A DNA stretch of 63,163 nt from Clostridia bacterium. Lineage in GTDB: Bacteria; Bacillota; Clostridia; Oscillospirales; CAG-272. Numbering within the stretch: position 1 is the stretch's first letter; each line of letters begins with the position of its first letter. Made by a program: the position numbers and the translations under genes. The notes below the pieces were generated by a model. It ran no database searches. It saw only the letters and a list, made by a program, of their open reading frames with translations, and was not told where the DNA came from. The stretch lies in NCBI GenBank assembly GCA_017450945.1, contig JAFSSP010000012.1:1-63163 (forward strand). The letters run 5' to 3'. Of the stretch, positions 6,368 through 36,545 are shown piece by piece.

Positions 6368-6440
6368 AGTTCCTTCCAGACGTCAGGGTTGATGAAAACC
6401 GGCGATAAACATTCCGGTCAATCTGTAGATCTTCTTTTTT

Positions 6441-6469
6441 ATCATACACCATTTTTGCGCATTTTGCAA
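6441..6469 (-). promoter_or_regulatory. Promoter for yfmF-yfmH-lgt-folD
   Basis: TTGCAA (6464-6469), 17 bases, TATGAT (6441-6446), about 75 bases upstream of the yfmF start. It is the only good promoter seen before folD, implying a four-gene operon. Confidence 0.65.
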
Positions 6470-6477
6470 GATGGAAA

Positions 6478-6515
6478 GAAAAAGTGAACCGAAGAGCCGC
6501 CGCTCTTCGGTTCAC
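6478..6515 (-). terminator. Terminator after lipoprotein gene
   Basis: A perfect 14-bp stem (6483-6496 with 6501-6514) with a four-base loop is followed on the minus strand by TTTTTCTTT. It ends the 6522-7421 transcript. Confidence 0.88.
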
Positions 6516-6521
6516 GCAAGT

Positions 6522-7421
6522 TTACTTTAAGGATTTCGGGATCGCGTTTGCCGGTTTCTTAAAGGTTGTGCTGCCGTAATTCGTAAAGGTAAATTCCTGA
6601 TAGTTGCCGTAGACGTCGGTGGAAAAGTCAAGCGACTCGCCAATCGGGCGTAAGAAGGCAAAGAAAGTCAGTTTTTTCGCTTCAAAGCGAAGGATTGCAT
6701 AGCTGATGTTGTTTCCGGCAATCGTCTCCGGGAACAGTTCGTACTGCTTGTCAATCGGATTGTAAGCATACTTCTCATAATTATCAGGGAAAACCGCGTA
6801 TTGAGCGGCAAACCGAGAAGCATAGTCCACATACTTTGCGGCAAAGCGTTGCTTGGTCATGGACTCGACATACCAGATTCCGTCTTCGCCTTTGGTGTAA
6901 ACATCATAGCCGGAAGCGGTCACCATATCGTATTGCTCGTTTTTGATCTTTCCGTCCTCGTCCTCCTGATACCAGTAAGTCCCATTCTCGGTGAAATAGT
7001 ACACCTTTTTATCTGCAAACTTACCGGAATTGGTTGCGTAGAAGGTCATGGTCACATTCTTGAAGCTTGCCGCTTCAAAGGCACGCTCCATCTGGTCCAC
7101 GCGAACTGTGGTCGTAGGTCCATTGCTCGGATCAAATTCAAAGGTTTCGGCCTTTTCTTTTCCGCAAACACGGCAACGATAGGACATAATTCCCGTCGTT
7201 TCTTCATCGGCTTCCCGCAAAACGACGCCTTCGTCCCATTCATGCGGTGCTTTGTCGATATAAGAATTGCAGTTTCCTTCACAATTGTGCCAGTGATCGT
7301 TGTCGTCAAAAGACCAGAACGAGCTGTAAACATGCTCGTGTGCCTGCTCGCAGGAAGAAAGCCCTGCCACAAGCGGGAAGCACATCAAAGCAGTCAAAAT
7401 CAGTGCAAGAATTCTTTTCAT
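6522..7421 (-). CDS. Putative lipoprotein, function unknown
   Basis: A 299-residue exported protein. It begins with MKRILALILTALMCFPLVAG and a lipobox-like LSSC, so it should be anchored outside the membrane after Lgt/Lsp processing. Just after the anchor is a His/Cys-rich stretch (HEHVYSSF, HWHNCEGNC, then CRVCG), a motif style common in surface proteins of gut Bacillota that could bind metal. The rest is unrecognised and rich in Tyr and Phe, with beta-like segments. The start at 7421 is fixed by GAAAGGAA. It is monocistronic, with its own promoter and terminator. Confidence 0.75.
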   Translation of the reverse strand: MKRILALILTALMCFPLVAGLSSCEQAHEHVYSSFWSFDDNDHWHNCEGNCNSYIDKAPHEWDEGVVLREADEETTGIMSYRCRVCGKEKAETFEFDPSNGPTTTVRVDQMERAFEAASFKNVTMTFYATNSGKFADKKVYYFTENGTYWYQEDEDGKIKNEQYDMVTASGYDVYTKGEDGIWYVESMTKQRFAAKYVDYASRFAAQYAVFPDNYEKYAYNPIDKQYELFPETIAGNNISYAILRFEAKKLTFFAFLRPIGESLDFSTDVYGNYQEFTFTNYGSTTFKKPANAIPKSLK

Positions 7422-7485
7422 ATAAAATTCCTTTCTTTTGAAAAAGGCTTTTGTCAAAAAAGGAACGCGCTGTGCGTTTTGCACC

Positions 7486-7514
7486 ATTATAGCACATGTT
7501 GCAAATTTCGTCAA
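7486..7514 (-). promoter_or_regulatory. Promoter of lipoprotein gene
   Basis: TTGACG (7509-7514), 17 bases, TATAAT (7486-7491), about 65 bases upstream of the start codon. Confidence 0.8.
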
Positions 7515-7517
7515 GGG

Positions 7518-8597
7518 CTATATGATCAACATTGCGTCGCCAAACGAGAAAAACCGATATTTCTCCTCTACGGCGATCCGATAGGCTTCCAGAATTTTTT
7601 CGCGGTCGTAGAAGGCCGAGACGAGCATGAGCAGAGTGCTCTCAGGCAAATGGAAATTGGTGACGAGCGCGTCGACCGCTTTGAATTTATAACCCGGATA
7701 GATGAAAATGCCGGTATCGCCGCACATCGGATGAATGATCCCCTCCCCATCGGCAACGCTCTCGAGCGTGCGGCAAGAGGTGGTACCCACGCAGATGATC
7801 CTTCCGCCTGCGGCCTTGCGGGCGTTGATGACATCGGCCGCTTCTTTTGACACCGAGAAAAATTCGGTGTGCATGACGTGATCGGTAATGTGATCCTCCT
7901 TGACCGGGCGGAAGGTGCCAAGTCCCACATGGAGCATGACCGGAACGATTGCAATGCCCATGCTTCGGATTTTTTCGAGCAGTTCGGGGGTAAAATGCAG
8001 TCCCGCGGTGGGCGCCGCGGCCGAACCCTCTTCCTTTGCGTAAACCGTTTGATAGCGTTCTTTATCTTCCAACCGTTCTGTGATATAGGGCGGCAGAGGC
8101 ATCAGTCCGATCTCGTGCAGAATGGCAAAGAGATTATCGTATTTCTTCTTGTCGTAGGTAAAGCGGATGATGCGGTTCCCTTCCTCGACGAGCGAGAGAA
8201 CTTCGCCCGAGAGAATCCCTTCTCCAAACGAGAGCTTCATGCCGACTCTTGCCCGTTTGCCGGGCTTTACAAGACACTCCCAGGTATCCAGATCGCGCTG
8301 ACGGAGAAGCAAAAGCTCCATCGGCGCGTCTTCCCTGCCCTCGACAGTCCCGTAGATGCGCGCAGGGATCACGCGCGAATCGTTGATGACAAGAACGTCT
8401 TTCGGCGAAAGATAGTCCACGATCTCATAAAAATGCCTGTGCGAAAGCGCGCCGGTCTTGCGATCGATCACAAGCAGACGGGAGGCGTCTCTCGGTTCGA
8501 TCGGATGCTGGGCGATGCGCTCTTCCGGCAGGTCATAATAAAAATCTCGTTTGCAGAGATCTGTTTTCGGTAATTCGTTGACGATCGGATTGGACAT
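7518..8597 (-). CDS. queA: S-adenosylmethionine:tRNA ribosyltransferase-isomerase
   Basis: QueA transfers and isomerises the ribose of SAM to preQ1 in tRNA, giving epoxyqueuosine. The 359-residue protein has the N-terminal [15 protein letters not shown] and [15 protein letters not shown]-like [26 protein letters not shown] and the C-terminal [14 protein letters not shown]. The ATG at 8597 follows AAAGGAG; longer upstream reading has no start signal. Its promoter faces away from dapA. No tgt lies next to it in this window. Confidence 0.95.
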
Positions 8598-8634
8598 ACG
8601 GGACTCCTTTGCATATCCTTCTAACAGATACCCT

Positions 8635-8663
8635 ATTATACAACCATTCTTTTTCCATTGCAA
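8635..8663 (-). promoter_or_regulatory. queA promoter
   Basis: TTGCAA (8658-8663), 17 bases, TATAAT (8635-8640), 38 bases upstream of the queA start in the 97-base gap shared with dapA. No comparable promoter for dapA was found in this gap. Confidence 0.75.
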
Positions 8664-8694
8664 TGGTATTTTGCACTTTTTTTGGAGGGAACCC

Positions 8695-9579
8695 GTGAAA
8701 AAGCTGAATTTTCCTTTGTTTGACGGAGTGGCGACCGCACTTTTGACCCCGTTTTCAGAAGACGGATCAATCGATGAAGATTCCTTTGAGCGCATGGTCC
8801 TGCGCCAGATCGATTCGGGTATATCCGCGCTCGTTGTGGCAGGGACCACAGGAGAAGGAACGACACTTTCCGACAAAGAAAAATGCCGTCTGACTTCTCT
8901 TGCAAAGGATCTTTGCACAGGTAAGATCCCGGTGTACGGTAACTGCGGCGCAAACGATACCGAAAAAGCGGTATCGCTTGCCAAAAAGCTGACGCGCGCG
9001 GGAGCCGACGGACTGCTCTCTGTCACCCCGTACTACAACAAAGCAACGCGACGCGGATTATACCTGCATTACAAGGCGATCGCCTCGGCCACCGACACGC
9101 CGCTCATGGTCTACCACGTTCCGACGCGCACCGGTTGCCGCATGACGATCGAAAATTACGCCGATCTTTCGGAGTTGGATACGCTCGTCGCCGTCAAGGA
9201 AGCCTCGGGAGAATTGCGACTTTTGTCGGATCTTTTAGAAGACTTTGGCGAGCGTTACGCCGTTTATGCTGGGAACGACGAGGACGCCCTGTTTGCAAGA
9301 AGGCTCGGCTCTCCGGGGTGCGTCTCGGTGCTCTCAAATCTTTTGCCGGAAGACTGCGTCAGATTGCAGGCGCTCTGTAGAATCGGAGACTGGTCGGCGG
9401 CAAGAAGTCTCGAAAAAGAACTGCTCCCGAAAATGCAAGCGATGTTCCGGGAGGTCAACCCGGTGCCGGCAAAGTACGTTGCCTCTCGCATAGGCCTATG
9501 CAAGCCTTCCTGGCGTTTGCCCATGTGCGAGCCCTCAAAAGAGACTGCAGCAGAGCTTGATGACCTCTTCAAACTATGA
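8695..9579 (+). CDS. dapA: 4-hydroxy-tetrahydrodipicolinate synthase
   Basis: DapA condenses pyruvate with aspartate semialdehyde in the lysine/meso-DAP pathway. The 294-residue TIM barrel shows the family signatures [43 protein letters not shown], the catalytic Tyr in [11 protein letters not shown], and the Schiff-base Lys in VAVKEASGE. The start is a GTG at 8695 with TTGGAGGGA in front. An aspartate kinase at 38.1 kb serves the same pathway but is not linked. Confidence 0.95.
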
Positions 9580-9610
9580 AAACAGCCCTCCAAAAAGAGG
9601 GCTGTTTCAT
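9578..9610. terminator. Bidirectional terminator between dapA and the MBL lipoprotein gene
   Basis: AAACAGCCCTC (9580-9590) pairs with GAGGGCTGTTT (9597-9607) around a CAAAAA loop, with A and T runs outside. The two convergent genes share it. Confidence 0.85.
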
Positions 9611-9611
9611 T

Positions 9612-11585
9612 TTAATTCTTCGGTTTTTGCTCGTTGTAGAGCTTGTCATAATCGGCATTCCGCGGCCCTGTCGGCGTGTACGGAAGCTCGAGCTTGGTCG
9701 TACCTTCGGCCATGACGATGATCTTCTTGACCCCTTCGGCACTGCGTGCCCAGGCATTCTCTTTGCGATCCAGATACCGCCAGAGGAAAACCGTGCCGTG
9801 GCTATCCGATTCCCAGTTGACAAAGGTCATCGGCCAGAGAATGACGGTGGGATTAACTTTTGCGTAAAACTCGTTGCGGCACTGGTGATCGTAACCGTGG
9901 TGCGCGTACTGCAGAATATCGGCATGGACGACCTCATCATCGAGGTGCATCATGCGGTCGCTCTCACCGTACTCGGCATCGCCGAGGAAGAGGATCGACT
10001 GTCCGCCGGCCTCCACTTTAAAGACAAGCGAGGTATCGTTTCCGCTCTTGAAATGCGTACCGGGTACATCGAGAGGCGCGTCCTCTTTGCGGTTTTCCCA
10101 GGGATAGTTATCCTCGTAAGTGCAAATGATCGTGACCGTGGCACCCGAGAAAGAGAACTGCATTCCGCTGCGGAGTTTGCGGTAGAGGACTGCTCCCGGC
10201 CAGGTGCGCATTTTGTTTTCCCAGTTGCGGCTGTTGTTCGGCCACATATCACCGACGTTCGTATAGAGGAAGTTGTGATAGAAGCCTTCGACCACGACCG
10301 AATTCTGATACAGATCGGTGAAGGTACTGAACGCGCCGACGTGGTCGATATGCATGTGTGTAGAGAACCAGCCTGCAATGATCGGTTTTTCGTGGGTTTT
10401 CGGCTTGTTTGCCATCAGGATCTCATAGATGGCGTCGGCATCCTCTTTTGTCCGGTAGCCGCCGTCGATCACAAGAAACTTGCCGTCGGTGAGCTGCATG
10501 ACGTATCCCATGCCGCCGTTGGATTTTGCCGCCTCGCAGTTGATGTTGATCTGCCAGAGCGCCGGCTTGCAGATGCCCGCGTCGGCTACAGGAGCCTTGG
10601 ACGGATTCGGATCGTCCGAACGGCCCACATAAACGCGAAGCGCCTTTTCATCGTTCAAATAGGAAACGTAGGCGCTGAACTTCTCGTGCGAGAGAAGCGT
10701 ATAGCGGTTATGCCCCATCTCATAGGTCTCTGTAACCTTACAGCCGAGATTTTTCATTTCCTCGACATAGGTGTTATAATCGGCCTTTGTGCAATCCGGA
10801 TAGTAAAAGATCTTCGAAGAGTCAATCATCGAATAGTCGTTGTCGTCATCGCCCATCGAGCAGTTGAAACAGCCAAAAAGCTTCTCCGGCATCGGCAGTT
10901 CATAATTCAGGTTTTCCATAAATCCACATCCCTCTCTTGTACAGTAAACGGTTTCGAGTTTTCCGGCGTCGCTGATCACAATGCCGAAGCGGTGAGGCTC
11001 GGCCTCGCCCAAACAGGTCGTATCGCTATGCTCGCCGCAGGTGCAGGAATAATAATACCGTGCAGATTCGCCGCAAGCCGCCGGCAAGGCGAGAAAACGA
11101 TCGTTTTGAAGTTTCAAATCAAAGTGGTGATAGTGCCAAACGATCGGGCTGTCGTTTTCACCGTAGTACCAGAAGTTGCCCTCCTCGGGCGGCTGCGTTT
11201 TGGCATAGCAGTAAACGCTTGGAAGATCGGCGGGAACCGATACCCCATTCCACTCCTCGGCGCTCCCGGTAAAATAAAGCCGGAACAGGTTTGGACAGTC
11301 GTCGAATGCGCCTTCGCGGATCCCGGTCAGACGGTAGCCTCTGGCCGGTTCGTTTGCAATGGAAAGCGTACTTTCCTTTTGCGCGATCTCGGCAACGCCG
11401 AACACCACAGCTCCGCCGTTCTCATCCAGTCCGTAGTAGACGCCGCGCACGGTTTTGGTATCATAGAACTCGGCCGCCGGATCCTCTTTGGCCGGTTCCG
11501 GCTCGGGGGCAACTATCCCTTCTTTGCAGGCGATAAGACCGGTGACAAGGAGCAGCGAAAGAAATATCAGGAAAAAACGTTTCAC
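9612..11585 (-). CDS. Lipoprotein with LRR fragment and metallo-beta-lactamase-fold domain
   Basis: A 657-residue exported protein. It has a signal peptide with lipobox LIAC near residue 20, a leucine-rich-repeat-like piece (GIREGAFDDCPNLFRLYF) near residues 90-105, a Cys/His patch (HYHHFD, CTCGEHSDTTC) near residues 150-190, and a metallo-beta-lactamase fold from about residue 350 with THMHIDHVG at about 409-417 followed by GDAEYGE and AHHGYDHQ. The domain resembles the ComEC-type hydrolase branch. Substrate is unknown; nuclease or phosphodiesterase activity outside the cell is an inference. The start is a GTG at 11585 following AAGGAGGG. Confidence 0.82.
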   Translation of the reverse strand: MKRFFLIFLSLLLVTGLIACKEGIVAPEPEPAKEDPAAEFYDTKTVRGVYYGLDENGGAVVFGVAEIAQKESTLSIANEPARGYRLTGIREGAFDDCPNLFRLYFTGSAEEWNGVSVPADLPSVYCYAKTQPPEEGNFWYYGENDSPIVWHYHHFDLKLQNDRFLALPAACGESARYYYSCTCGEHSDTTCLGEAEPHRFGIVISDAGKLETVYCTREGCGFMENLNYELPMPEKLFGCFNCSMGDDDNDYSMIDSSKIFYYPDCTKADYNTYVEEMKNLGCKVTETYEMGHNRYTLLSHEKFSAYVSYLNDEKALRVYVGRSDDPNPSKAPVADAGICKPALWQININCEAAKSNGGMGYVMQLTDGKFLVIDGGYRTKEDADAIYEILMANKPKTHEKPIIAGWFSTHMHIDHVGAFSTFTDLYQNSVVVEGFYHNFLYTNVGDMWPNNSRNWENKMRTWPGAVLYRKLRSGMQFSFSGATVTIICTYEDNYPWENRKEDAPLDVPGTHFKSGNDTSLVFKVEAGGQSILFLGDAEYGESDRMMHLDDEVVHADILQYAHHGYDHQCRNEFYAKVNPTVILWPMTFVNWESDSHGTVFLWRYLDRKENAWARSAEGVKKIIVMAEGTTKLELPYTPTGPRNADYDKLYNEQKPKN

Positions 11586-11631
11586 GGAAGTCTTCCCTCC
11601 TTTTTCCCATATTGATTTTTCAAGCACCCTT

Positions 11632-11661
11632 ATTTTATCACACCGGTCATTCTTCTGTCAA
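11632..11661 (-). promoter_or_regulatory. Promoter of MBL lipoprotein gene
   Basis: TTGACA (11656-11661), 18 bases, TAAAAT (11632-11637) with TG one base upstream of the -10, about 45 bases before the start codon. Confidence 0.7.
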
Positions 11662-11705
11662 TGCAGAAAAAGCCCGAAAAATCAAGCGTATTTTTGTGAA
11701 TTTTG

Positions 11706-13049
11706 TCAATCGCCGGCCACGCTGACCAAGGGCAAATACAGATCGGGAGAGCCGAAAGCCGTAAAGCCTGACGGCATACTCCAATAGACGGTGTCGCCCA
11801 GAGCGGCGATCTCCTTGAAAAGTTCAAAAATATTGCCCGAGATGGTAAAGGATTTGATCGGTTCGGCCTGCTTGCCGTCGCGGATCAAAAAGCCGTAACT
11901 CTCCATCGAAAAGTCGCCTGTCACGGCGTTGGCGCCCGCGTGAAATCCCTTGCACCCGGTGACAAAAATGCCGTCTTTTGCAAGGCCGAACAGCGCGTCT
12001 CTCGGATCCTCCCCGGGCAGGATCGAGAACTGGTAGGGCGAGATCGAAACAGGCGCCGAATAGGAAGGCTTTTGTCCGTTGCCGGTCGATTCCACTCCTG
12101 CTTTTTTCGCGGTGGAAAGATCGTAAAGAAGCGTTTTGAGAACACCGTCCTTAACCACTTCCCGTTTCGCGGTCGCAACGCCCTCTCCGTCAAAATTGGT
12201 TTTGGCAAAGGAGCCTTCGCGCATGGGATCGTCGACGATGGTCACAAGGCTTGCGGCAATCGCCTCGCCCTCTTTCCCGGCAAGCCTCGAAAGTCCCTTT
12301 TGCGCGTTCTTTGCCGAAAAGATCGGCGAGAAGGCCGACAAAAAGTCCTTGAACACTTTTCCGTCGATCACCACCGGGTACTTGCCCGAGGGGATCGTAA
12401 CGGCTCCCAGTCGGCTGAGTGCGGTTTTGACCGTCTTTTCCGGCAGTGCAAAACAATCCTCCTTGTTCTGCTCCTCGGCAAAGGCAAAAGCGCTCTCGGC
12501 TTCTTCCCCCTGTCTTACCACGGCGTCGGCATAGCGCAGGCCGCCGCAGACCCGGTTGGACAGATCCAGCCCCTTGGAATTGAAGAGATAGACCTCGTCC
12601 TCGTAGTAGGAGATCCCGCTTTGCGTGCCGTCGCCTACGAGCGGGCTGTTTTCATAAAGCGCCTTTTGCAGTTCAAGGGTGGAACGGCGAAGCTCGGCCG
12701 CCTCCGGGAACTGCGCCCTGACGGCTTCCAGCGGTGCGTAAGAATCCGAGCCCGCAAACAGAATGATCTCATCTTCGCTCTGCGAGACTTTTGCGTTTGC
12801 ACGAGCCTTTTCCACAAGGCCTTCCACGGCCTCTTTGGTCAAAAGCTCGGAGGAAGCGTAACCCTGCTTGCCGTCTATCACACAGCGAAAGCAGATGCCG
12901 CCGTCTGCAGAGGAAGTAAAGGAATTCAGTTCGTCCTTGAGTGCCTCGGCGGAAAGACTGCTCCCCCTTTGGTAATAGATCTCATAGTCGGTGATCCCCG
13001 CCTTTTTTGCGGCGGCAATGAGCGTGGTCTTGAGTTCTTCAAATTTCAT
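11706..13049 (-). CDS. pmbA: TldE/PmbA-type metalloprotease subunit
   Basis: The 447-residue protein belongs to the TldD/PmbA family and lacks the HExxxH motif, as expected for the TldE/PmbA partner. Recognisable parts are the N-terminal ISDYEIYYQRG-like segment (TDYEIYYQRGSSLS), GKYPVVIDGKVF and the C-terminal GDFSMESYGFLIRDGK. TldD and TldE form a heterodimeric protease that cleaves unfolded or modified peptides in the cytosol. It begins two bases from the tldD stop. Confidence 0.92.
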   Translation of the reverse strand: MKFEELKTTLIAAAKKAGITDYEIYYQRGSSLSAEALKDELNSFTSSADGGICFRCVIDGKQGYASSELLTKEAVEGLVEKARANAKVSQSEDEIILFAGSDSYAPLEAVRAQFPEAAELRRSTLELQKALYENSPLVGDGTQSGISYYEDEVYLFNSKGLDLSNRVCGGLRYADAVVRQGEEAESAFAFAEEQNKEDCFALPEKTVKTALSRLGAVTIPSGKYPVVIDGKVFKDFLSAFSPIFSAKNAQKGLSRLAGKEGEAIAASLVTIVDDPMREGSFAKTNFDGEGVATAKREVVKDGVLKTLLYDLSTAKKAGVESTGNGQKPSYSAPVSISPYQFSILPGEDPRDALFGLAKDGIFVTGCKGFHAGANAVTGDFSMESYGFLIRDGKQAEPIKSFTISGNIFELFKEIAALGDTVYWSMPSGFTAFGSPDLYLPLVSVAGD

Positions 13050-13050
13050 A

Positions 13051-14430
13051 TCAGCGACCTCCTACCGTAATTGAGGAAACCCGGATGAGCGGTTGCCCCA
13101 CGTTGGTGGGAATGCTTCCGCTCGCCGCTCCGCACATGCCTTCGGCGCAGGCGAGGTTTTGCCCCACCATGTCGATGTTCTGTAAGATCTCCGCTCCGGT
13201 GCCGATGAGCGTAGCTCCCCGGACGGCTTCGGCGATCTTTCCGTTTTTGACAAGATAGCCTTCGGTGACAGAGAAGTTGAACGCGCCGGTGAGCGGATCG
13301 ACCGAGCCGCCGCCCATCTGCTTGCAGTAAAGGCCGTTTTCGATCGAGGCGATGATATCCTCGTTTTTGTCCGGGCCGTTTTCAATAAAAGTATTTGTCA
13401 TGCGCGAGGTGGCTTCGTAGCGGTAGCTCTGCCGTCTTCCGCTTCCGGTCATGGGGAGCCCCATACGGCGCGAGCCGAGCCGGTCGACAAGATAGCTTTT
13501 CAGCACGCCTTTTTCGATGAGCAGATTTCTCTGCGAAGGCGTTCCCTCGTCGTCGATATTGATCGATCCCCATGCGCCCGGAATGGTGCCGTCGTCCACG
13601 GCGGTCACCTTTTCGTTGGCAATTTTTTGCCCGAGCTTTCCGGCCATCTGAGAGGCGCCGATGGCGACGGCCGACGCCTCGAGCGAGTGCCCGCAGGCCT
13701 CATGGAAGATCACGCCGCCAAAGCCGTTTTCAATGGCGACCGTCATGCGCCCGGCCGGGCAATAGGTGGCGCCGAGATTGACCATGGCCTGACGCGCGGC
13801 CTCTCTTCCCACCGTCTCGGGAGTAACGCGGTCAAAGAATTCCAGCCCGCACCCGGATCCCGGAGCGGCAAGGCCGGATTGCGAATCGTTCTCGTTTGCG
13901 GCAAGCGCCGAGATCCCGATGCGCGTACGGATCTTGCGATCGGTGGCATAGAGGCCTTCGGTATTGGCAACAAGGATTTTATGATCCACACCGAAAATGG
14001 AGCCAGTCACCTGCTTGATCGCAGGATCGTAGGAAAGCGCGGCGTTGCAGGCCGAAAGGAGCAATTCGGCGCGCAACTTTGCGTCGACGTCGGTCGTGAG
14101 TTTTTCGGTCGGATGAAGATTTGGGAACACGCGCTCGCAAAGAAGGACGTTCTGCGGCGTGCTCGGATCCCCCATTGCCGCGGCAACCGCTTTTGCGCAG
14201 GCAAGCATCCCTTCCTCCGAGAGATCCGAGGAGGAAGAAAATACGGTTTTGGTTCCGAGAAATGCGCGGACGCCGATCCCGGAGATCAGCGTATCGTTGG
14301 CGCGCTCGATCGTTGACCCGATTGCAGAGACCGCGTTGCTCTCGGTCACTTCGCAAAAGAGCTCCGCAAAATCGGCTCCCGAAGACATGGCAATGCCGAG
14401 AAGCCGTTCGGCAAACTGTTTTGAAATCAT
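13051..14430 (-). CDS. tldD: TldD-type zinc metalloprotease
   Basis: This is the catalytic partner of the downstream TldE. The zinc motif HEACGH (HExxxH) sits in GVIFHEACGHSLEA in the middle of the 459 residues, followed by GTPSQRNLLIEKG and the C-terminal GMCGAASGSIPTNVGQP. The ATG at 14430 has an AGAGGA site; a 30-codon upstream extension has no support. It lies 16 bases behind a HAD phosphatase gene. No RiPP precursor peptide was seen nearby, so the likely role is general peptide turnover. Confidence 0.93.
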   Translation of the reverse strand: MISKQFAERLLGIAMSSGADFAELFCEVTESNAVSAIGSTIERANDTLISGIGVRAFLGTKTVFSSSSDLSEEGMLACAKAVAAAMGDPSTPQNVLLCERVFPNLHPTEKLTTDVDAKLRAELLLSACNAALSYDPAIKQVTGSIFGVDHKILVANTEGLYATDRKIRTRIGISALAANENDSQSGLAAPGSGCGLEFFDRVTPETVGREAARQAMVNLGATYCPAGRMTVAIENGFGGVIFHEACGHSLEASAVAIGASQMAGKLGQKIANEKVTAVDDGTIPGAWGSINIDDEGTPSQRNLLIEKGVLKSYLVDRLGSRRMGLPMTGSGRRQSYRYEATSRMTNTFIENGPDKNEDIIASIENGLYCKQMGGGSVDPLTGAFNFSVTEGYLVKNGKIAEAVRGATLIGTGAEILQNIDMVGQNLACAEGMCGAASGSIPTNVGQPLIRVSSITVGGR

Positions 14431-14446
14431 GCTTTGATCCTCTTTT

Positions 14447-15109
14447 CTATGAGTTTTGCAAGGATTTGACAAGTTCCGGAAGCTCTGCGAGCGTATCCGC
14501 CTTTTTCCAGACGCAGGCACAGGCCCGGTCGGTCAAATCCATAAGATCTTTGATAAAAACCACGCGCATCCCGGCGGCATATCCCGCCAGCACCCCATTT
14601 TCGGAATCTTCGGCGACGAGGCATTCGTCGGGGGTGACGCCAAGCTTTTCTGCGGCAAGGAGAAAAACATCGGGGGCCGGTTTGCTGTGCGCAACGCATC
14701 CGCCGGTCAAGATCAGGTCAAAATAACCTTTGATCCCGGTGATTGTCAGAAACTTCTCGGCACGCCCGGAATTGGTCGAGCTTGCAAGGGCGCAAAGAAT
14801 TCCCATTTCGTGGAGCCGGTCAAAAACCTCCGGCACGCCGGGCTTGAGGTGAAGTCCTTCTTTTTCGATGATCTCAAAGATCACGTCGGTCTTGTAGCGC
14901 CAGATTGCTTCATAATCGAAGTCGTGTCCGACAGGGCTTTTGAGGTATTCTCCGATCTCGTCGTGATCCCTGCCGGTCACGACGCGCATGGAGCCCTCGT
15001 AATAACCTTCGATCCCGAGTTTTCGGAAGACGGCAAGCCAGGCCTTGCGGTAGATCTTTTCGCTGTCGAAAACCGTGCCGTCCATATCAAAAAGTACTGC
15101 CCTGATCAC
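14447..15109 (-). CDS. HAD-family phosphatase, beta-phosphoglucomutase-like
   Basis: A 220-residue haloacid dehalogenase hydrolase with the nucleophile motif DMDGTVFDSE at residues 8-17, a helical cap, motif II (ALASSTNSG), the motif III Lys near HSKPAPDVF and motif IV (VAEDSENG). This is the subfamily that includes beta-phosphoglucomutases and phosphoglycolate-like phosphatases. The substrate cannot be told from sequence. It is the first gene of the HAD-tldD-pmbA operon. Confidence 0.88.
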   Translation of the reverse strand: MIRAVLFDMDGTVFDSEKIYRKAWLAVFRKLGIEGYYEGSMRVVTGRDHDEIGEYLKSPVGHDFDYEAIWRYKTDVIFEIIEKEGLHLKPGVPEVFDRLHEMGILCALASSTNSGRAEKFLTITGIKGYFDLILTGGCVAHSKPAPDVFLLAAEKLGVTPDECLVAEDSENGVLAGYAAGMRVVFIKDLMDLTDRACACVWKKADTLAELPELVKSLQNS

Positions 15110-15140
15110 ACCGATTCCCCCTTCGTCTTGATTCGTTTTT

Positions 15141-15169
15141 ATTATAATCCCGAATCGAGGATTTGTAAA
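15141..15169 (-). promoter_or_regulatory. Promoter for HAD-tldD-pmbA operon
   Basis: TTTACA (15164-15169), 17 bases, TATAAT (15141-15146), about 30 bases before the HAD start. Confidence 0.75.
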
Positions 15170-15257
15170 GTGATTTTTCCCAAGAGGTCGATTTTCTATC
15201 TTAAGTGGTCGTTCTTGATGATCGCAACAGGAAAGCCGCGAAATACAGCCGTTTTCC

Positions 15258-15286
15258 TTGACAAAAAAGAAAATTCATGCTATACT
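15258..15286 (+). promoter_or_regulatory. Promoter of DUF1015 gene
   Basis: TTGACA (15258-15263), 17 bases, TATACT (15281-15286), about 30 bases before the ATG at 15316. Confidence 0.85.
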
Positions 15287-15315
15287 TTTTTCAAATATTC
15301 AAAGGAGGCAAACCG

Positions 15316-16584
15316 ATGGATCATCCCGCATTTTTTGATAGTTTTGAATTGCTTTTGCCGGATTTTTCAAAAATCGACGGAAGTAAGTGGTCTGTCGTTG
15401 CCTGCGACCAATTCACCAGCGAACCCGCCTACTGGAAAGCGGTCGAAAAGACCGTCGGCAGCGCGCCCTCGACCCTCTCGCTCGTCCTGCCCGAGGTCTA
15501 TCTTTCGGAGCGTGCAAACCGTATTCCGAAGATCCATTCGGCCATGGAAGAGGCGCAAAAAAGCCTTCTTCACCCTATTCCGGACGCCATGATCGCGCTT
15601 GAGAGGACGCAGAGTGACGGCCGCGTCCGGCGCGGCATTGTCGGCTTGATTGATCTCGAAACCTACGAATTCAAAAAAGGCGCGGCCTCGCTCATCCGGG
15701 CGACCGAGGGAACGGTGGAAGAACGCATCCGACCGAGAGTGGAGATCCGCCGTAACGCGCCCTTGGAGCTTCCCCATGTGCTCCTGCTTGTCGACGACCC
15801 CAAAAAGACGGTGATAGAGCCTGCCGTATCTTCTGCAAGCAAAAGAGAGGCGCTTTATGATTTTCCGCTCATGCTGGGCGGCGGTCATGTCAAGGGCTGG
15901 CTGTTGACAAAAGAAGAACAAAAAAAGATCCAACGCGCACTTGCGTTACTTGCCGATCCCGTTCACCAAAAAGAGTTGTACGGTGACGGCATTGCCGCTC
16001 CCCTGCTCTTTGCCGTGGGTGACGGCAACCATTCGCTTGCGACCGCCAAAACCGTTTACGAAGAAATCAAAGCAGGGATCGGAGCCGAGGCGGCAAAGAA
16101 ACACCCGGCAAGATACGCGCTCTGTGAAATAGAAAATTTACACGACGACGCGCTCTCTTTTGAGCCAATCTATCGCGTAGTCTTCGACTGTGACCCGGAG
16201 GCGCTCCTGACCGAGTTCTCGGACTATGCAAACGCGCTTGACGGTAACGCCGCACCGCAAACGCTGACCGCGCTTCAAAAAGGAAAAGCCACCGAACTTG
16301 TGATCTCCCACCCGGTTCATCACCTGACGGTAGGAACTCTGCAGACCTTTCTCGACGTCTATTGCAAACATCATCCAGATGCCAGCGTGGACTACATTCA
16401 CGGAGAGGAGTCGCTCCGGTCTCTCGCCGCAAAAGAAAATGCGATCGGCTTCTTGTTTGACGGCATGAAAAAGGAAGAACTCTTCCAAAGCGTGATTTTT
16501 GACGGCGCTCTTCCAAAAAAGACTTTTTCAATGGGACAGGCGCACGACAAGCGCTATTACCTCGAGTGCAGAAAAATCAAATGA
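15316..16584 (+). CDS. DUF1015-family protein
   Basis: A 422-residue cytosolic protein. The recognisable element is GDGNHSLATAK (about residues 235-245), the DGxH(R/S) motif of DUF1015 proteins, preceded by a ParB/sulfiredoxin-like fold in some predictions. Other conserved-looking parts are SVVACDQFTSEPAYW near the N terminus and the C-terminal YYLECRKIK. The family has no settled function. The ATG at 15316 follows AAAGGAGG directly. The gene is single, divergent from the HAD operon. Confidence 0.82.
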   Translation: MDHPAFFDSFELLLPDFSKIDGSKWSVVACDQFTSEPAYWKAVEKTVGSAPSTLSLVLPEVYLSERANRIPKIHSAMEEAQKSLLHPIPDAMIALERTQSDGRVRRGIVGLIDLETYEFKKGAASLIRATEGTVEERIRPRVEIRRNAPLELPHVLLLVDDPKKTVIEPAVSSASKREALYDFPLMLGGGHVKGWLLTKEEQKKIQRALALLADPVHQKELYGDGIAAPLLFAVGDGNHSLATAKTVYEEIKAGIGAEAAKKHPARYALCEIENLHDDALSFEPIYRVVFDCDPEALLTEFSDYANALDGNAAPQTLTALQKGKATELVISHPVHHLTVGTLQTFLDVYCKHHPDASVDYIHGEESLRSLAAKENAIGFLFDGMKKEELFQSVIFDGALPKKTFSMGQAHDKRYYLECRKIK

Positions 16585-25108: not shown

Positions 25109-26338
25109 ATGAAAAACCGAGGCTCAATCATTCTGCTCAGATGTCTGCTATTTGCGCTCATCTGTCTACAGCTCTATATGATTTTCGGATTCTCCAAAGA
25201 AGACGCGCAAAAATCGACCGAGTCGAGCGAGCGCGTCACCGAAGAGATCGCAAAAATTGTGATAGAAGATTATGAAAAACTGCCTGTGGAAGAACAAAAG
25301 GCGGCAGTCAAACGCATCGACCCTCCGGTGCGAAAAATCGCGCACGCCACCGAATTCGGGATACTGGGCGGCCTTGCCCTGCTCTTCTTTTTGACCTTCC
25401 GGCGTCTTCCGCTCTGGCTCTCGCCCATTTTGGCCACGCTATCAGCCGCGCTTGCCGGCGCTTTTGACGAACTGCATCAAACCTTTGTTCCCGGCCGCAG
25501 TGGTGAAGTGCGCGACGTCCTCATCGACACAAGCGGCGCGCTTCTTGTGATTCTGGTTGTTTTCTTGATCTTTCTACTCATCCGCGCACAACAAAAAAAG
25601 ATCGTTCTCACCAAAAAAGTGCTCCCCGCTCCGATCTCGGCAAAAATTGCAATCTTAGCCGATTTGCACGGCGAATATCCCAAAGAGATCGAGGCCATCC
25701 TGCAAGAAGAAAAACCCGACCTCATCCTGCTCCCGGGAGACCTGACCGACCGGGAAAATCTCGAAAGCGAAAGCGACCCGGCCTTTGCTTTTTTGCAAAA
25801 CCTCTCGACGCTTGCCCCTACCTACTACTCGCTCGGAAACCACGAGGTCGGTTGCTACAGAAAGGGCTTTTGCAAAAACCGCACACCGATTCCGCTTGCC
25901 GAAAAAGCAAAAGAAAACCTTGCAAAAGCCGGCATATTCTTGTTGGACGACCGTTTTTTTGTTGAAAAAGGCATCTCGATCTGCGGGCTATCCTCAAACG
26001 GAGGAAAAGGCATTCCGCAAAAGCAAGACCTATTGCACCGCTTTTCTGCGGCCCCGGGTTTTAAGATTTTGCTCTGCCACCATCCCGAGCAGTTTGCCCC
26101 GCTCGTCCGCTCGTATCCCGAGATCGATCTGACAATCGCGGGACATGCGCACGGCGGACAATGGAGAATCTTCGGTCATGGTATTTACGCACCCGATCAA
26201 GGACTATTCCCCTCCTACACGAGCGGCTTCTATTTCGATAATCGTCTTCTCGTCAGCCGCGGGCTCGGCGACCACACGATCATTCCAAGATTTTTCAACC
26301 GCCGCGAGCTTGTGATTCTGGAACTGACAAGCGAATAA
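25109..26338 (+). CDS. VanZ-like membrane domain fused to metallophosphoesterase
   Basis: One 409-residue reading frame joins two families. Residues 8-158 form a VanZ-like membrane domain with KIAHATEFGILG (76-87) and DELHQTFVPGRSG (120-132), whose conserved Glu/His/Asp/Arg residues are typical of VanZ. Residues 176-409 are a YkuE-like calcineurin phosphoesterase with DLHG (185-188), GDLTD (210-214), GNHE (243-246), CHHP (323-326) and GHAHGG (345-350), a full ligand set. The phosphoesterase would be membrane-tethered; its side is not certain. Envelope lipid or glycopeptide-related work is inference. Confidence 0.88.
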   Translation: MKNRGSIILLRCLLFALICLQLYMIFGFSKEDAQKSTESSERVTEEIAKIVIEDYEKLPVEEQKAAVKRIDPPVRKIAHATEFGILGGLALLFFLTFRRLPLWLSPILATLSAALAGAFDELHQTFVPGRSGEVRDVLIDTSGALLVILVVFLIFLLIRAQQKKIVLTKKVLPAPISAKIAILADLHGEYPKEIEAILQEEKPDLILLPGDLTDRENLESESDPAFAFLQNLSTLAPTYYSLGNHEVGCYRKGFCKNRTPIPLAEKAKENLAKAGIFLLDDRFFVEKGISICGLSSNGGKGIPQKQDLLHRFSAAPGFKILLCHHPEQFAPLVRSYPEIDLTIAGHAHGGQWRIFGHGIYAPDQGLFPSYTSGFYFDNRLLVSRGLGDHTIIPRFFNRRELVILELTSE

Positions 26339-31929: not shown

Positions 31930-32865
31930 ATGCCACAAGATCCCATTGCAACTTCCACTGTTTCCGGGAACAATCAAACCCCGGAAGAGAGGAACACTTC
32001 GTCTGAAAGATCCGATGCCAACGACCGCTCGAAAAACAAGTTCTCCGAGATCGTAAGAGGCGAGCTTTCCTCTGCCGCATCGAATCATGCCGGAGAAAGT
32101 CTTGCCGGATCTTTCGGAGCTGCGACCTCTGCGGCAGAAATTCTCGGCCCCATGCGAACGCTTTTTGCGGGCATTGGTTCGATCGGCAAAAATCTCGTCG
32201 GGCTCTTCAAAAACAAGCAGTGGCTCAAATTGATCCTTGCCGTGCTTCTGGCAGTTGCCTGGATCGTATTGATGATTCTGCAATACAACGGCGTCAACGT
32301 AAAAGCCTTGAATATTCTGACCTTTGCCCAGGGCGGTGTTGGAAGAAGCGTTTTCGGCTGGATCGGCGGATTTTTTGGAAAGACTGCCATTGCCGCCATG
32401 CTCATTTCTCTTTTCACGGGAGGTTTCAAAGCGCTCGGCGGCGGGTTCTCTTCGCTTTTCAAAAAGCAGAATTTTCAGCTCTCTTCACTTTCCTGGTTGC
32501 TCCTTGGCGCAGGCTTTGCCCTGATCCTTTACCAGTTCTTTGCAGGGAATGCAACCTATATGGATCTCATGCCTACAGTTTCCTGCGCGCTTCTTTCCAT
32601 CATGGCGCTCGGGCGCATGGGAAGAATCGGAGGGCGGCTCGCCACCTCGCTGACTTCAAGAAAGAACGCCGCTAAAACCCGTACGGCTCAGCCCGAAAAA
32701 GCAGGTGCACTTCTCTCCGGCATGACATTCGGATTTACGATCGGCGCCCTTCTTTGCCTCATCCCATTCGGATACCTGCCGGTGATTCTCGGGGGCGCAG
32801 CCTTTGTTGCGGGGCTTATTCTGGCTCTTGTATTCGGTCATAAAAAGGAGGTTGCGGCAGCATGA
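31930..32865 (+). CDS. Multi-pass membrane protein of unknown function (pair gene 1)
   Basis: A 311-residue protein. The first 95 residues are hydrophilic and Ser/Asn/Glu-rich, then about six hydrophobic segments follow (about 98-118, 150-166, 188-206, 212-228, 262-284, 287-304), with Gly-rich turns (FGWIGGFFG, GGFKALGGGF). There is no signal peptide and no recognised motif. AAAGGAG precedes the ATG. It overlaps the 1212-residue gene as ATGA, so the two are probably made in fixed proportion and work together. Confidence 0.75.
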   Translation: MPQDPIATSTVSGNNQTPEERNTSSERSDANDRSKNKFSEIVRGELSSAASNHAGESLAGSFGAATSAAEILGPMRTLFAGIGSIGKNLVGLFKNKQWLKLILAVLLAVAWIVLMILQYNGVNVKALNILTFAQGGVGRSVFGWIGGFFGKTAIAAMLISLFTGGFKALGGGFSSLFKKQNFQLSSLSWLLLGAGFALILYQFFAGNATYMDLMPTVSCALLSIMALGRMGRIGGRLATSLTSRKNAAKTRTAQPEKAGALLSGMTFGFTIGALLCLIPFGYLPVILGGAAFVAGLILALVFGHKKEVAAA

Positions 32866-35800
32866 AAAAGAATCTCATTCGCCTGCTCTGCGTTTTGATC
32901 CTTAGCGTCTGGATCGCTTCTTTACTCTCCCTTTCGGCCTTTGCCACCGAGTTTCTTGACTACAAAAAATACAAAGCCGATCCCGCTTACGATGTTGAAT
33001 GCATCATCGAGAAAAAAACGACCTATTATGAGCGCAGCCAGCTGAATTGGTCAACCGAGCACCTCCAGAACGGCGGCGAGATCAACGGCACCTATAGACT
33101 GATCCAGCTCGGTTCAAGCTATTATTACAACAAGACAGTCTATTCCCAGCCTGTCACCTTCCGCTTTGAAATTCCGCGCCTTTACACCGAATATTACACC
33201 GAAGGACGCACCTATGAAAAAGTGGACGATGAATGGTATGGCGCCGACTACGAAAACCGCGGACAGGCGCACAAATACTCCTCAGTTCAAAAAGAAGGGC
33301 GCGATACCTATATGTGGTATCGGAATGCACAATATGAGGGCGACCAGCCCGGCACGCCCGGCAACTACATTCAAAGCTATCTGAGCGCGTCGCTCACTTG
33401 CGGTCCCAGGAGCGTCGGCGTGTTCACCGACGCCGATCTCAAACGCTGGGGCAAAACCTGGGAGGAATACCTGGAGGAACAAAGGATCACTTATTCCACC
33501 AATAACGACGCGCTTCCGCATGAAAAGGATCGGTTTACATTCAAAGAAACCAAGCTGAATAACGGCGTCATGTTTGAAACCTACCAATACGATTGGATCG
33601 AACGCCCGAACGCCAACGGAACCGGGACCTTCAAGGGAAACGGCGACGTCATCGTCAACCGAATCGAGGCGCTGGGAAACGAGCAGGAGACATGGCAAAC
33701 CGTCATCTTTTTCAAATCCGATGCCTATCCGGGATTCTATTTTGTCGCCGGTTGCACGGTCGGCACCTATCTTTGGTACGACAACGGAACGGTCGCGGAC
33801 GATAAGACCACCACAGCCCTGTACAACGAATTCCTTGAGCGGAAGAATTACACCGTCAACACGATCTACCCTGCCCTGCAATCGGCTCTTGCACCGAAAG
33901 TGACTGTCGGGGAAGGAAGCGGAACGATCGTCCCCGCAACCGTAAACTATGAAGCGATCGTTAGTGCCGAAGCAAAGTCGGAATCCGGTGAAGACGGCGG
34001 CACGACCATCCCTGCGATCATCATTCTTGGCACGCTCGGAGTCGGTGCGGCTCTTGCGGGAGCCGCCGCTGCGGTTGCCGCGGCAGAGGACGGCAAAAAG
34101 GAAGACGATAAAAAGCGTTCCTCTTTCAAAATGTATATCAATAAGGATTTCGGTGATACGCTCAAGAAAGGGCTCAACCCGCAGGCTGTTTACGCGCGCA
34201 TCACAGAAATCAAGCCGACCGGTGAAGAGATCGACCGACCGGATCTGACAAAAACGATCCTGGTTGGTTCTTCGGACGATTCGCTCACCGTGACCGACGG
34301 CGGCATGACGGCAAACGGCTACCGCTGTGCTATGGTTTCGGTTCCGGATACCGCCGAGCCGCGTCCTGAGGGCATTGTCACCTTCCGCTTTGAAGGCGAA
34401 GGCGGCTCCTATACGCAAAACGTCATTTTCAAAATCCTTGGCGACTGTAGCATCACCTTCCCGGACAAAAAGCCGGAAGATGCCGTCTTTGTCAAAAAAG
34501 GACTGCTTGGCGACAGCAAAGAATATCTTGTGGAGTTCGTTCCCGAAAACTTTGCAAACCCGCCAGAGAGTTTCAAGCTCACCTCGCAGAGCGACAAAAT
34601 CGAAGTGGTCTACAAGCCTTCCCGCCTCGGCAAACACTACGCCGCCATCAAGAATAAAACGGTCGCGCCCGAAGTGACAAGAACGCACTATGACGCAACC
34701 GCGGATTACGGCGAACATAATGTTCTTTCCTCCAGCGCTTTTGCAAAATCCGAGGAAGCCGAAATCCATATCCTCGCCGAAAACAAGGAAGAAAAAACCG
34801 AGGTCGACTTTAAGATCGAATTTTACCCTGAAGGCATTTCGGTCAAGCTCATCAAAGGAGAGGTCAGAGACAACAAACTCATCATCGACACCCAGGATGA
34901 AAACGGCGTTTTCAAGCCGGTTGAACTTGAATTCATCCGCACCTCCAAACTCCCGAGCGGCAACGTTCAAGTGGACAACGACGTGGATGTGGAAGAGTGC
35001 CTTACTTTGATCGAAGGCAAGGACGACTCGGAGAGCGTAAACGTCATCTACGGCTTCAAACACAAGGTAGAGGCCTTTACCCACGAAGGCAAAAAGGCTT
35101 ACCGCCTGATGCCGGAAGTTGCCATTCCGGACAACGGGCACGACTGCTACACCTTTAAGTGGTCTGCGATCTCCGCCGGCAGTGGGCAGGCATTCCGGCT
35201 GGATCTGCCGGTGCGTCTGACCGGTGAAAAGCTTGATCTTGCGCCGGTTGAAGAGCGCAACAAGGAGATCGCGCTGCTCAAGCGCGCCATCGAGCGTTAC
35301 GGGCTTCACAACGACGCACAGGCAACCTCGCTCGTCGACAATCTCGAAGAGCTCCCTGCCAGCGTCATCAAGCAAATGCGCGCGCAGGTGCTCCGATGCG
35401 CCATCGAGTACTACAGTGAAGAAGCAAGGAAAGAGGCAAACTTCGCCAATTACATGAGCGTTGGAATGTACTCCTGTATGTTCTTCGATTGGCTCGGTCA
35501 GCAGGCCTTCTCCTATATTCTGAAGGTCTATGTCGGAGACGTTGGCGAAATGCTCATTACGCCGCTCAAAAACGCAATCGTGGGCGCGGCGGCCGACAAC
35601 CTGCACTCCTTTATTTGGGGAGAACCTTATCAAGATCATTTTACCTATGAAAAGGTGGTCGGCATTTTTGAGGAGATGGCGGAAAATTTCTTAATCGATG
35701 CCCTCTTCGGCAATATCGATTGGTCGGATCTTTCCAACGCCGGTAGAGAAGGTGCAAAGCTGCTCAAGAATTTCAGTTTGAACAACGCAAAGAGCGCTTT

Positions 35801-36500
35801 GCTCAAGGTGTTCGGCGCCGATTACAGCGACAAACTCAAAAAAGGCGCCTGCTTCTGCGCCGCGTTCTGTTCGCTCAATTTTGCAAAGCACTACTATCTG
35901 GATGAAGAAACCAAAGGCGACTTCGGAAAAGCCATTGTGGCAACCTTCAACGATTGCTCCATGAACACCTTAAAGCAGGTCTTCTCCAAGTTCGTAACGA
36001 ATTGGCTCAAGAAAAAATACGGGCTTTCCGAAATCAGCCGCAATTCCGAAGGTGGAATGACGGTGGATACCTACACAGTAGCTCCGCTCGAAAAGTACAT
36101 CAAGTCAAAGCTGACCGTTGGCGATATCCAGCTCTTCGGCAAGCAGTTGACCGGAACCGAGTTTTTGGCGTTCGGTAAGAAATATGATTTCTTCAAAACA
36201 ACCGGCGACAACACCGGAACGCTTGTCGGCGTCGGCGTGGACGCTTTGACCGGCGCCATTGTCGACGCGGCGCCCGACGTTCTTTCCGGAATCTGGAAAG
36301 CCTTCTGGGATTCTTCGATCGGCGGATTCATCATCTGCGCAGGCGGCAAGCTCTATGCGCTGACCATCAAGGGTTTTGTGGAAGCCTGCTTCAAGCAGAT
36401 CACCGAGTATTACGAAGCGGCAAAATTCACTCTATCCAAAACGATCCCGATTCCCTCTTTCATTCCAAGTTCGGATTCCCCGAAAGAAAAAGAAGCATAA
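32862..36500 (+). CDS. Very large exported membrane-anchored protein, function unknown (pair gene 2)
   Basis: A 1212-residue protein, the largest in the window. Residues 1-28 are a signal peptide ending SAFA. Residues 29-375 are Tyr/Trp/Thr-rich and beta-like. One Ala/Gly-rich membrane helix lies at 384-408, followed by the charged EDGKKEDDKKRSS. Residues 421-790 look like several beta-sandwich modules (MYINKDFGDTLKKG, ARITEIKPTG, VTFRFEGEGG). Residues 795-1200 are helical, with a few hydrophobic stretches. If the single helix is used, the first part is outside and about 800 residues are inside. I do not recognise a domain. A strong terminator follows. Confidence 0.78.
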   Translation: MKKNLIRLLCVLILSVWIASLLSLSAFATEFLDYKKYKADPAYDVECIIEKKTTYYERSQLNWSTEHLQNGGEINGTYRLIQLGSSYYYNKTVYSQPVTFRFEIPRLYTEYYTEGRTYEKVDDEWYGADYENRGQAHKYSSVQKEGRDTYMWYRNAQYEGDQPGTPGNYIQSYLSASLTCGPRSVGVFTDADLKRWGKTWEEYLEEQRITYSTNNDALPHEKDRFTFKETKLNNGVMFETYQYDWIERPNANGTGTFKGNGDVIVNRIEALGNEQETWQTVIFFKSDAYPGFYFVAGCTVGTYLWYDNGTVADDKTTTALYNEFLERKNYTVNTIYPALQSALAPKVTVGEGSGTIVPATVNYEAIVSAEAKSESGEDGGTTIPAIIILGTLGVGAALAGAAAAVAAAEDGKKEDDKKRSSFKMYINKDFGDTLKKGLNPQAVYARITEIKPTGEEIDRPDLTKTILVGSSDDSLTVTDGGMTANGYRCAMVSVPDTAEPRPEGIVTFRFEGEGGSYTQNVIFKILGDCSITFPDKKPEDAVFVKKGLLGDSKEYLVEFVPENFANPPESFKLTSQSDKIEVVYKPSRLGKHYAAIKNKTVAPEVTRTHYDATADYGEHNVLSSSAFAKSEEAEIHILAENKEEKTEVDFKIEFYPEGISVKLIKGEVRDNKLIIDTQDENGVFKPVELEFIRTSKLPSGNVQVDNDVDVEECLTLIEGKDDSESVNVIYGFKHKVEAFTHEGKKAYRLMPEVAIPDNGHDCYTFKWSAISAGSGQAFRLDLPVRLTGEKLDLAPVEERNKEIALLKRAIERYGLHNDAQATSLVDNLEELPASVIKQMRAQVLRCAIEYYSEEARKEANFANYMSVGMYSCMFFDWLGQQAFSYILKVYVGDVGEMLITPLKNAIVGAAADNLHSFIWGEPYQDHFTYEKVVGIFEEMAENFLIDALFGNIDWSDLSNAGREGAKLLKNFSLNNAKSALLKVFGADYSDKLKKGACFCAAFCSLNFAKHYYLDEETKGDFGKAIVATFNDCSMNTLKQVFSKFVTNWLKKKYGLSEISRNSEGGMTVDTYTVAPLEKYIKSKLTVGDIQLFGKQLTGTEFLAFGKKYDFFKTTGDNTGTLVGVGVDALTGAIVDAAPDVLSGIWKAFWDSSIGGFIICAGGKLYALTIKGFVEACFKQITEYYEAAKFTLSKTIPIPSFIPSSDSPKEKEA

Positions 36501-36504
36501 AACA

Positions 36505-36541
36505 CCGGAAGCTCCGGCCATGAGCCGGAGCTTCCTTTTTT
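36505..36541 (+). terminator. Terminator after the 1212-residue gene
   Basis: A perfect 12-bp stem (36507-36518 with 36524-36535), five-base loop, then six Ts. It also lies between convergent genes. Confidence 0.92.
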
Positions 36542-36545
36542 CTGT

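Follow-up and report, generated by a model that had tools for sequence, protein, structure and literature searches.

What two adjoining genes without a named domain might do together is the question raised by the window, a stretch of 63,163 nucleotides from a Clostridia bacterium (GenBank assembly GCA_017450945.1, contig JAFSSP010000012.1) that lies on contig 3 of a 1.47 Mb, 84%-complete genome. An earlier note, made from the letters alone, had described here a six-helix membrane protein followed by a bitopic giant with a receptor-like or channel-coupled layout. We tentatively read the pair, called P0001 (the partner) and P0002 (the giant), as one membrane complex in which a constant chassis would carry exchangeable recognition and payload or output ends, possibly in a recognition or conflict role resembling that of polymorphic effectors. 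The pair is laid out as follows:

31930..32865, forward strand: P0001, the 311-residue partner, with an N-terminal tail of about 95 residues and then six predicted transmembrane helices, N-in/C-in
32862..32865, forward strand: ATGA stop/start overlap, common to the end of P0001 and the start of P0002
32862..36500, forward strand: P0002, the 1212-residue giant, an open reading frame (ORF) with homologues in relatives
36507..36545, forward strand: intrinsic terminator 3' of P0002, with a 12-pair stem and a T run at 36507-36535

The pair was confirmed beyond chance: both genes, their junction and a constant core module of the giant recur in seven families, and those giant segments with estimable synonymous divergence are under purifying selection. 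In what follows, G numbers denote compared genomes and L numbers compared loci; the genome draws overlap. P0002 as query found matches in 4 of 98 relatives, its own genome included. Profiles of the core matched 6 of 398 genomes in a draw from the phylum and 6 of 295 in a draw from the order. Draws around single genomes gave 3 of 63 (class of G158), 3 of 20 (family of G503) and 1 of 8 (family of G363). The giant-bearing G genomes belong to seven families (f1, f10, f20, f47, f53, f59 and f87), and the relatives that have names comprise two Lachnospiraceae assemblies, one of them titled as sheep rumen, and Butyrivibrio sp. XPD2006, which has two pairs. No giant was found in the viral contigs, plasmids and phages searched. 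The distribution is sparse.

Where the giant occurs the partner usually does too, being present in 17 of 18 giant-bearing genomes, with giant-to-partner copy numbers of 3:3, 3:3, 2:2 and 2:2 in G785, G786, G787 and G054. G014 carries the two on different contigs, near contig ends; copies were uneven in G503 (two giants, one partner), G663 (two cut giants, one partner) and G158 (a giant alone). A partner profile matched 8 of 295 genomes in the order draw, six of them with a giant, and 8 of 398 in the phylum draw, five with a giant and G256 strongly without one; marginal matches in G272 and G324 were left uninterpreted. The partner adjoins a core-less signal-peptide protein in G582 and G620. The 4-nt overlap was kept in 18 of the 22 junctions with the partner directly upstream, a count that includes the RHS protein of G256 discussed below; outside it stand L095 and L096, where the gene order is reversed, and L097 and L098. 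Other rows left out were L029 and L035, without an adjacent partner, and L039, where the giant is cut. The genes are thus usually together, and not usually separate, which the earlier note had named as a refuting outcome. Distances between cores correlated with those between partners (r = 0.904, n = 19 pairs, equalled in 0 of 5000 permutations), although adjacent-gene linkage alone can yield part of this value. Partner and giant form a unit, and core and membrane parts diverge in step.

Despite this recurrence, searches of Pfam, NCBIfam, PADLOC and PHROGs yielded nothing significant for either protein. Neither one matched a Pfam or NCBIfam model at E ≤ 1; PADLOC returned no family at that threshold for the two proteins and two relatives, and thus no match to known anti-phage defence; PHROGs gave chance-level scores alone, with E 0.029 as the best for P0002 and no hit for P0001. 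We therefore regard the pair as an unnamed two-gene family of at least seven bacterial families and Lachnospiraceae records, whose mosaic build is typical of recognition and conflict systems. Several statements of the earlier note held at this level: the ATGA-sharing pair, the AEC transporter and epimerase on the same strand, the strong terminator at its end, and the lack of a named domain in both proteins, to which no characterised family was matched in Pfam, NCBIfam or PADLOC.

The giant was divided as follows, on hydropathy, charge and models from AlphaFold 2 (AF2), whose confidence is given as the predicted local distance difference test (pLDDT) and the predicted template modelling score (pTM); K/R and D/E stand for lysine/arginine and aspartate/glutamate, and Ig for immunoglobulin:

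32862..32945, forward strand: signal peptide by hydropathy, residues 1-28, its site (A-F-A before T29) read from the sequence
32946..33947, forward strand: ectodomain, residues 29-362, where the family varies most; AF2 confidence low
33948..33992, forward strand: predicted strand (363-370) and A-x4-G-E motif (A371-E377), residues 363-377; pLDDT 96 over 365-384
34008..34085, forward strand: Ala/Gly-rich hydrophobic segment by hydropathy and charge, residues 383-408, with a K/R- and D/E-rich linker after it
34122..34442, forward strand: constant core Ig-like module, residues 421-527 (KMYxxKDFG...VYAR...RxDLT...GEGG), related in every one of the 253 pairs; generic Ig-like fold by fold search
34443..35231, forward strand: further predicted beta modules, residues 528-790; AF2 block pLDDT 41-90, low around 600-629; fold matches span model residues 347-761
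35232..36497, forward strand: predicted helical C-terminal region, residues 791-1212, AF2 confidence low; some relatives have other C-termini here

The strongest evidence for a chassis with exchangeable ends came from comparing these parts among 23 giants (253 pairs, blastp E ≤ 1e-4). L032 was left out, here and in the charge counts below, for a masked run; the ectodomain of L013 is cut by a contig end, and the close pairs L007/L008 and L034/L036 count as separate rows. The first Ig module was related in all 253 pairs, partly by construction because most giants were collected with a profile of this core; for the next beta modules the count was 117, for the C-terminal parts 101 and for the ectodomains 12. 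L092b and L093 had cores 98% and C-termini 84% identical, and their ectodomains gave no match; L007 and L037 likewise shared a C-terminus (70%) and no ectodomain match, whereas L034/L093 (59%) and L009/L012 (45%) shared an ectodomain with no match between their C-termini. At L092, positions 7211-16068 hold two complete pairs in tandem, the giants' cores being 88% identical, their ectodomains without match and their C-termini 24% identical over 181 residues. Synonymous divergence (dS) differed several-fold along one gene, which fits segmental recombination: in L007/L008 it was 0.72 for the ectodomain, 0.10 for the core, 0.14 for the next modules and 0.31 for the C-terminus, and in L034/L036 0.10, 0.30, 1.00 and 0.50, respectively. 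The ratio of nonsynonymous to synonymous divergence lay at 0.01-0.27 in the segments of four giant pairs with estimable dS, two ectodomain comparisons being excluded, and indicates purifying selection. Exchange between relatives affects both the ectodomain and the C-terminal region, each independently of the other. The partner does not follow these ends, since the partners of L092a and L093 are 94% identical beside giants whose C-termini align at 23% over 229 residues and whose ectodomains align over 66 residues. One long alternative C-terminus, found in L007 (10152-11411), L009 (10128-11216) and L037 (10150-11409), has a conserved AT-x-N ... G ... D pattern; it may be nucleotidyltransferase-like, and is without family match.

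A second line of evidence was a short motif carried by both proteins, which in the partner lies here:

32077..32097, forward strand: A-x4-G-E motif of P0001, A50-S-N-H-A-G-E56, in the predicted cytoplasmic N-tail

Of 23 partners, 20 had this motif in the N-tail, against 2.74 expected when the N-terminal parts were shuffled, and G55 and E56 were invariant in 13 aligned partners. Of 24 giants, 23 had it (22 of 23 without L032), against 3.0 from shuffles, at a distance of 0 to about 60 residues ahead of the hydrophobic segment. Among the 21 partners next to a giant with the core, 20 carried the motif, and none of three next to a core-less protein (L096, L097, L126) did, an association with Fisher p = 0.002 when relatedness is ignored. 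From these sequences we infer that the short element which both chains have in common may be presented by each to the Ig core. The coupled motif gives a precise handle on how the two proteins meet.

The topology of the partner is firmer than that of the giant. Six peaks stood out in the hydropathy of P0001, with starts at residues 99, 141, 187, 210, 269 and 285; those at 141 and 210 were weak (1.58 and 1.40 in a 19-residue Kyte-Doolittle window with a usual cut-off of 1.6), so that the six helices of the earlier note are likely, not certain. K/R-rich loops predict both termini inside. A zinc-ribbon pattern, presumably also inside, was seen in the N-tail of 21 of 23 partners, the window's P0001 and that of L033 being without it. 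The L095 partner has five hydropathy peaks, and its C-terminus is a domain that occurs as a separate lipoprotein in L009 (58% over 180 residues), which fits N-in/C-out for five helices. This fusion lies at L095 3641-5335 and the lipoprotein at L009 3951-4712.

For the giant, the signal peptide foreseen in the earlier note was supported by hydropathy, its roughly 350 external residues correspond to an ectodomain of about 330, and its beta modules followed by a helical region were recovered as predicted Ig-like modules at about 421-790 and a helical remainder of low confidence. Its single Ala/Gly-rich helix stood in part: segment 385-403 is strongly hydrophobic (Kyte-Doolittle 2.07), but its Wimley-White octanol score was weak (−2.4 versus −11.6 for the signal) and AF2 folds both flanks together. 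The model of residues 30-1212 (22 rows) had a mean pLDDT of 54 and a pTM of 0.38, the confident part being the beta modules at about 420-790. That of residues 345-637 (23 rows) reached pLDDT 78.7 and pTM 0.66, with 96 for residues 365-384, which include the motif, 90-97 for the core at 425-524 and about 40 for the hydrophobic stretch 395-414. In this model both flanks of the putative transmembrane helix would pack on one Ig-like domain in cis, which argues against a simple bitopic receptor. Searches with the predicted structures, which the earlier note had proposed, matched generic Ig, cadherin and S-layer modules. A stack of Ig-like modules, as in S-layer and adhesin proteins, is present in the models, a shared fold that shows no function.

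Evidence on whether the approximately 800 C-terminal residues are cytoplasmic, as the earlier note had supposed, points both ways. With 20-residue flanks, 20 of 23 giants had more K/R behind the hydrophobic segment than ahead of it and 21 had a higher net charge there; with 15-residue flanks the counts were 16 and 22 of 23. By a composition score for export, on which two training sets of 88 and 20 ORFs gave 0.20 and 0.73, ectodomains reached 0.83, Ig parts 0.38 and C-terminal parts 0.43; cysteine content did not discriminate. These biases, with the signal peptide, the hydrophobic segment and a partner tail that the positive-inside rule places inside and whose motif is tied to the core, speak for a bitopic giant. 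The in-cis fold at pLDDT 96, the weak octanol score, an Ig stack like that of surface proteins and the G158 giant, which has its motif although no partner accompanies it, speak against it.

We prefer, still short of a firm view, a constant chassis with exchangeable ends. With six helices and a cytoplasmic N-tail, the partner would hold the giant in the membrane, in part perhaps through its A-x4-G-E tail, which could add a beta strand to the Ig core. Recognition of something outside may fall to the variable ectodomain, and the C-terminal region might be the payload or output. A role like that of polymorphic effectors is suggested because a homologous partner pairs with an RHS protein of the same signal-peptide and hydrophobic-segment build: at L126 in G256 the partner homologue (5925-6845) is followed, across an ATGA overlap, by a 1339-residue RHS-repeat protein (6842-10861; PF05593, E 6.4e-86). 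This case, the mosaic ends and the tandem copies with different ends favour a recognition or effector system. RHS arrays belong to polymorphic toxins, as set out in the sections consulted of PMC3482391. As far as those sections describe the RHS branch, the giants share with it an export leader on a large modular protein, end domains that are exchanged, a sparse distribution and, at L092, tandem copies whose ends differ; a homologous partner also stands beside a true RHS protein. P0002 differs in having no RHS or YD repeats by Pfam, which are present in the G256 neighbour, and no recognised toxin or processing domain or adjacent immunity gene; in the giants, moreover, it is the ectodomain and not the C-terminus that varies most.

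Several points weigh against this preference, beginning with the two caveats given above on core recovery and linkage. The RHS pairing is one case alone. No toxin, enzyme or signalling family matched the giant C-termini tested, and in the toxin-domain search each weak family matched 1 of 22 relatives. The interval between giant and malQ, 45 bp with the terminator, has no room for a gene and hence for an immunity gene 3' of P0002. Polymorphic toxins have more diverse C-termini than the giants seem to have. AF2 would pack the giant's own motif on the core in cis, and the G158 giant keeps the motif without a partner, so that the partner motif need not bind the core. The canonical motif is absent from both genes of L012, which deviate together. 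K/R were fewer after than before the segment in L007, L008 and L033 (3 of 23 giants), and the composition scores of the Ig and C-terminal parts are intermediate. With neither a known toxin domain nor an immunity gene, our confidence stays tentative and a receptor remains in serious contention.

Such a modular transmembrane receptor, possible though doubtful, would sense a ligand with its ectodomain, pass the signal through a helix packed against P0001 and act inside through its Ig modules and helical C-terminus. The signal peptide, the K/R and charge bias, the composition scores and the presumably inside zinc-ribbon tails all suit it, as do the ectodomain being the most variable part and possible regulators near some pairs (a LuxR type in 4 of 25 clustered loci, a helix-turn-helix (HTH) protein of 615 residues in three). 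However, no signalling domain was found in Pfam and NCBIfam searches of the giant and relatives, the Ig stacks resemble surface proteins, both helix flanks fold on one domain in the model, and an RHS protein takes the giant's place in G256. The receptor-like layout of the earlier note is therefore retained for the variable ectodomain, constant core and K/R bias and weakened by these same objections; no finding favours its channel coupling in particular.

The surface-like Ig stack would instead suit an adhesin or S-layer-like protein lying wholly outside, with the hydrophobic segment as a membrane-dipping anchor and P0001 as its membrane seat. We consider this unlikely: the zinc ribbons in 21 of 23 partners and the core-coupled motif in most of them stand in a tail expected inside, which is hard to place with the core outside, K/R follow the hydrophobic segment, and the C-terminus is exchanged.

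Quite improbable, but of wider consequence, is that P0001 acts as a membrane-embedded strand-donor chaperone, strand exchange driving or locking the surface presentation of a swappable payload. As long as the giant's Ig core is inside, the cytoplasmic A-x4-G-E tail would complete it; the Ala/Gly segment, which is weakly hydrophobic, could later allow the core and C-terminal payload to cross, and the giant's own A-x4-G-E strand would then replace that of the partner. This would explain the motif on both chains, on opposite sides of the membrane. In chaperone-usher pili, donor-strand complementation has a strand from another chain complete or extend an Ig-like domain, and we know of no sequence relation between these pili and the pair. 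By analogy, another chain could here supply a short strand to an Ig-like domain, although a polytopic membrane protein would act as donor and the giant has its own strand as well. If true, such an exchange would be a cytoplasmic-membrane counterpart of that in pili and a new way to move large proteins, or to present them, at a membrane. Small multi-pass proteins adjoining large modular proteins can be immunity proteins, but that P0001 protects against a toxic giant is very improbable, given that it tracks the core (r = 0.904) and not the ends and stays nearly identical beside the unlike C-termini of L092a and L093.

The nearest published analogue that we met for a recombining module with an Ig protein, set beside the giants by description and not by sequence, is provided by the VARTIG modules of Thermococcales, as far as the consulted text of PMC8416519 outlines them. 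These likewise have a large Ig-domain protein, recombining segments and membrane-linked neighbours. In those archaeal modules, as that text has it, the C-terminal Ig domain varies, the large gene comes first and the neighbours change, whereas in the pair the Ig core is constant and one partner gene is fixed.

Concerning the surroundings, the same-strand genes 5' of P0001 encode Mem_trans (AEC type) and Aldose_epim (aldose 1-epimerase) proteins by Pfam, and the 3' neighbour of P0002, on the opposite strand, is the 4-alpha-glucanotransferase gene malQ. Epimerase loci elsewhere in the genus numbered 19, and in one of them, G011, malQ lay nearby, with epimerase and malQ 69% and 84% identical; there, a histidine-phosphatase gene occupies the epimerase-malQ interval. 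Elsewhere in the window, 25109-26338 encodes a 409-residue protein that combines a VanZ-like domain with a calcineurin-like phosphoesterase (Pfam).

Core-less signal-peptide proteins with a common hydrophobic segment stand beside partner homologues at L096 (10332-12230) and L097 (minus strand, below 1565). The L096 protein has a Gly/Ala-rich end, and the L126 RHS protein has by eye a similar hydrophobic segment; 3' of the latter lie a putative RHS fragment, also by eye, and a zinc-ribbon gene. The LuxR-type regulator has a membrane N-terminal part (Pfam run for one member), and Pfam was run for two members of the HTH protein of about 615 residues:

L009 12274-14130: HTH protein
L092 5159-7006: HTH protein
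L093 10571-12418: HTH protein

Finally, a small protein with hydrophobic segments occurs near the pair or the partner in seven loci, its L097 copy without Pfam match:

L030 4890-5423: small hydrophobic-segment protein
L031 5809-6375: small hydrophobic-segment protein
L032 5772-6242: small hydrophobic-segment protein
L048 10777-11388: small hydrophobic-segment protein
L096 12261-12782: small hydrophobic-segment protein
L097 2555-3118: small hydrophobic-segment protein
L098 4908-5477: small hydrophobic-segment protein
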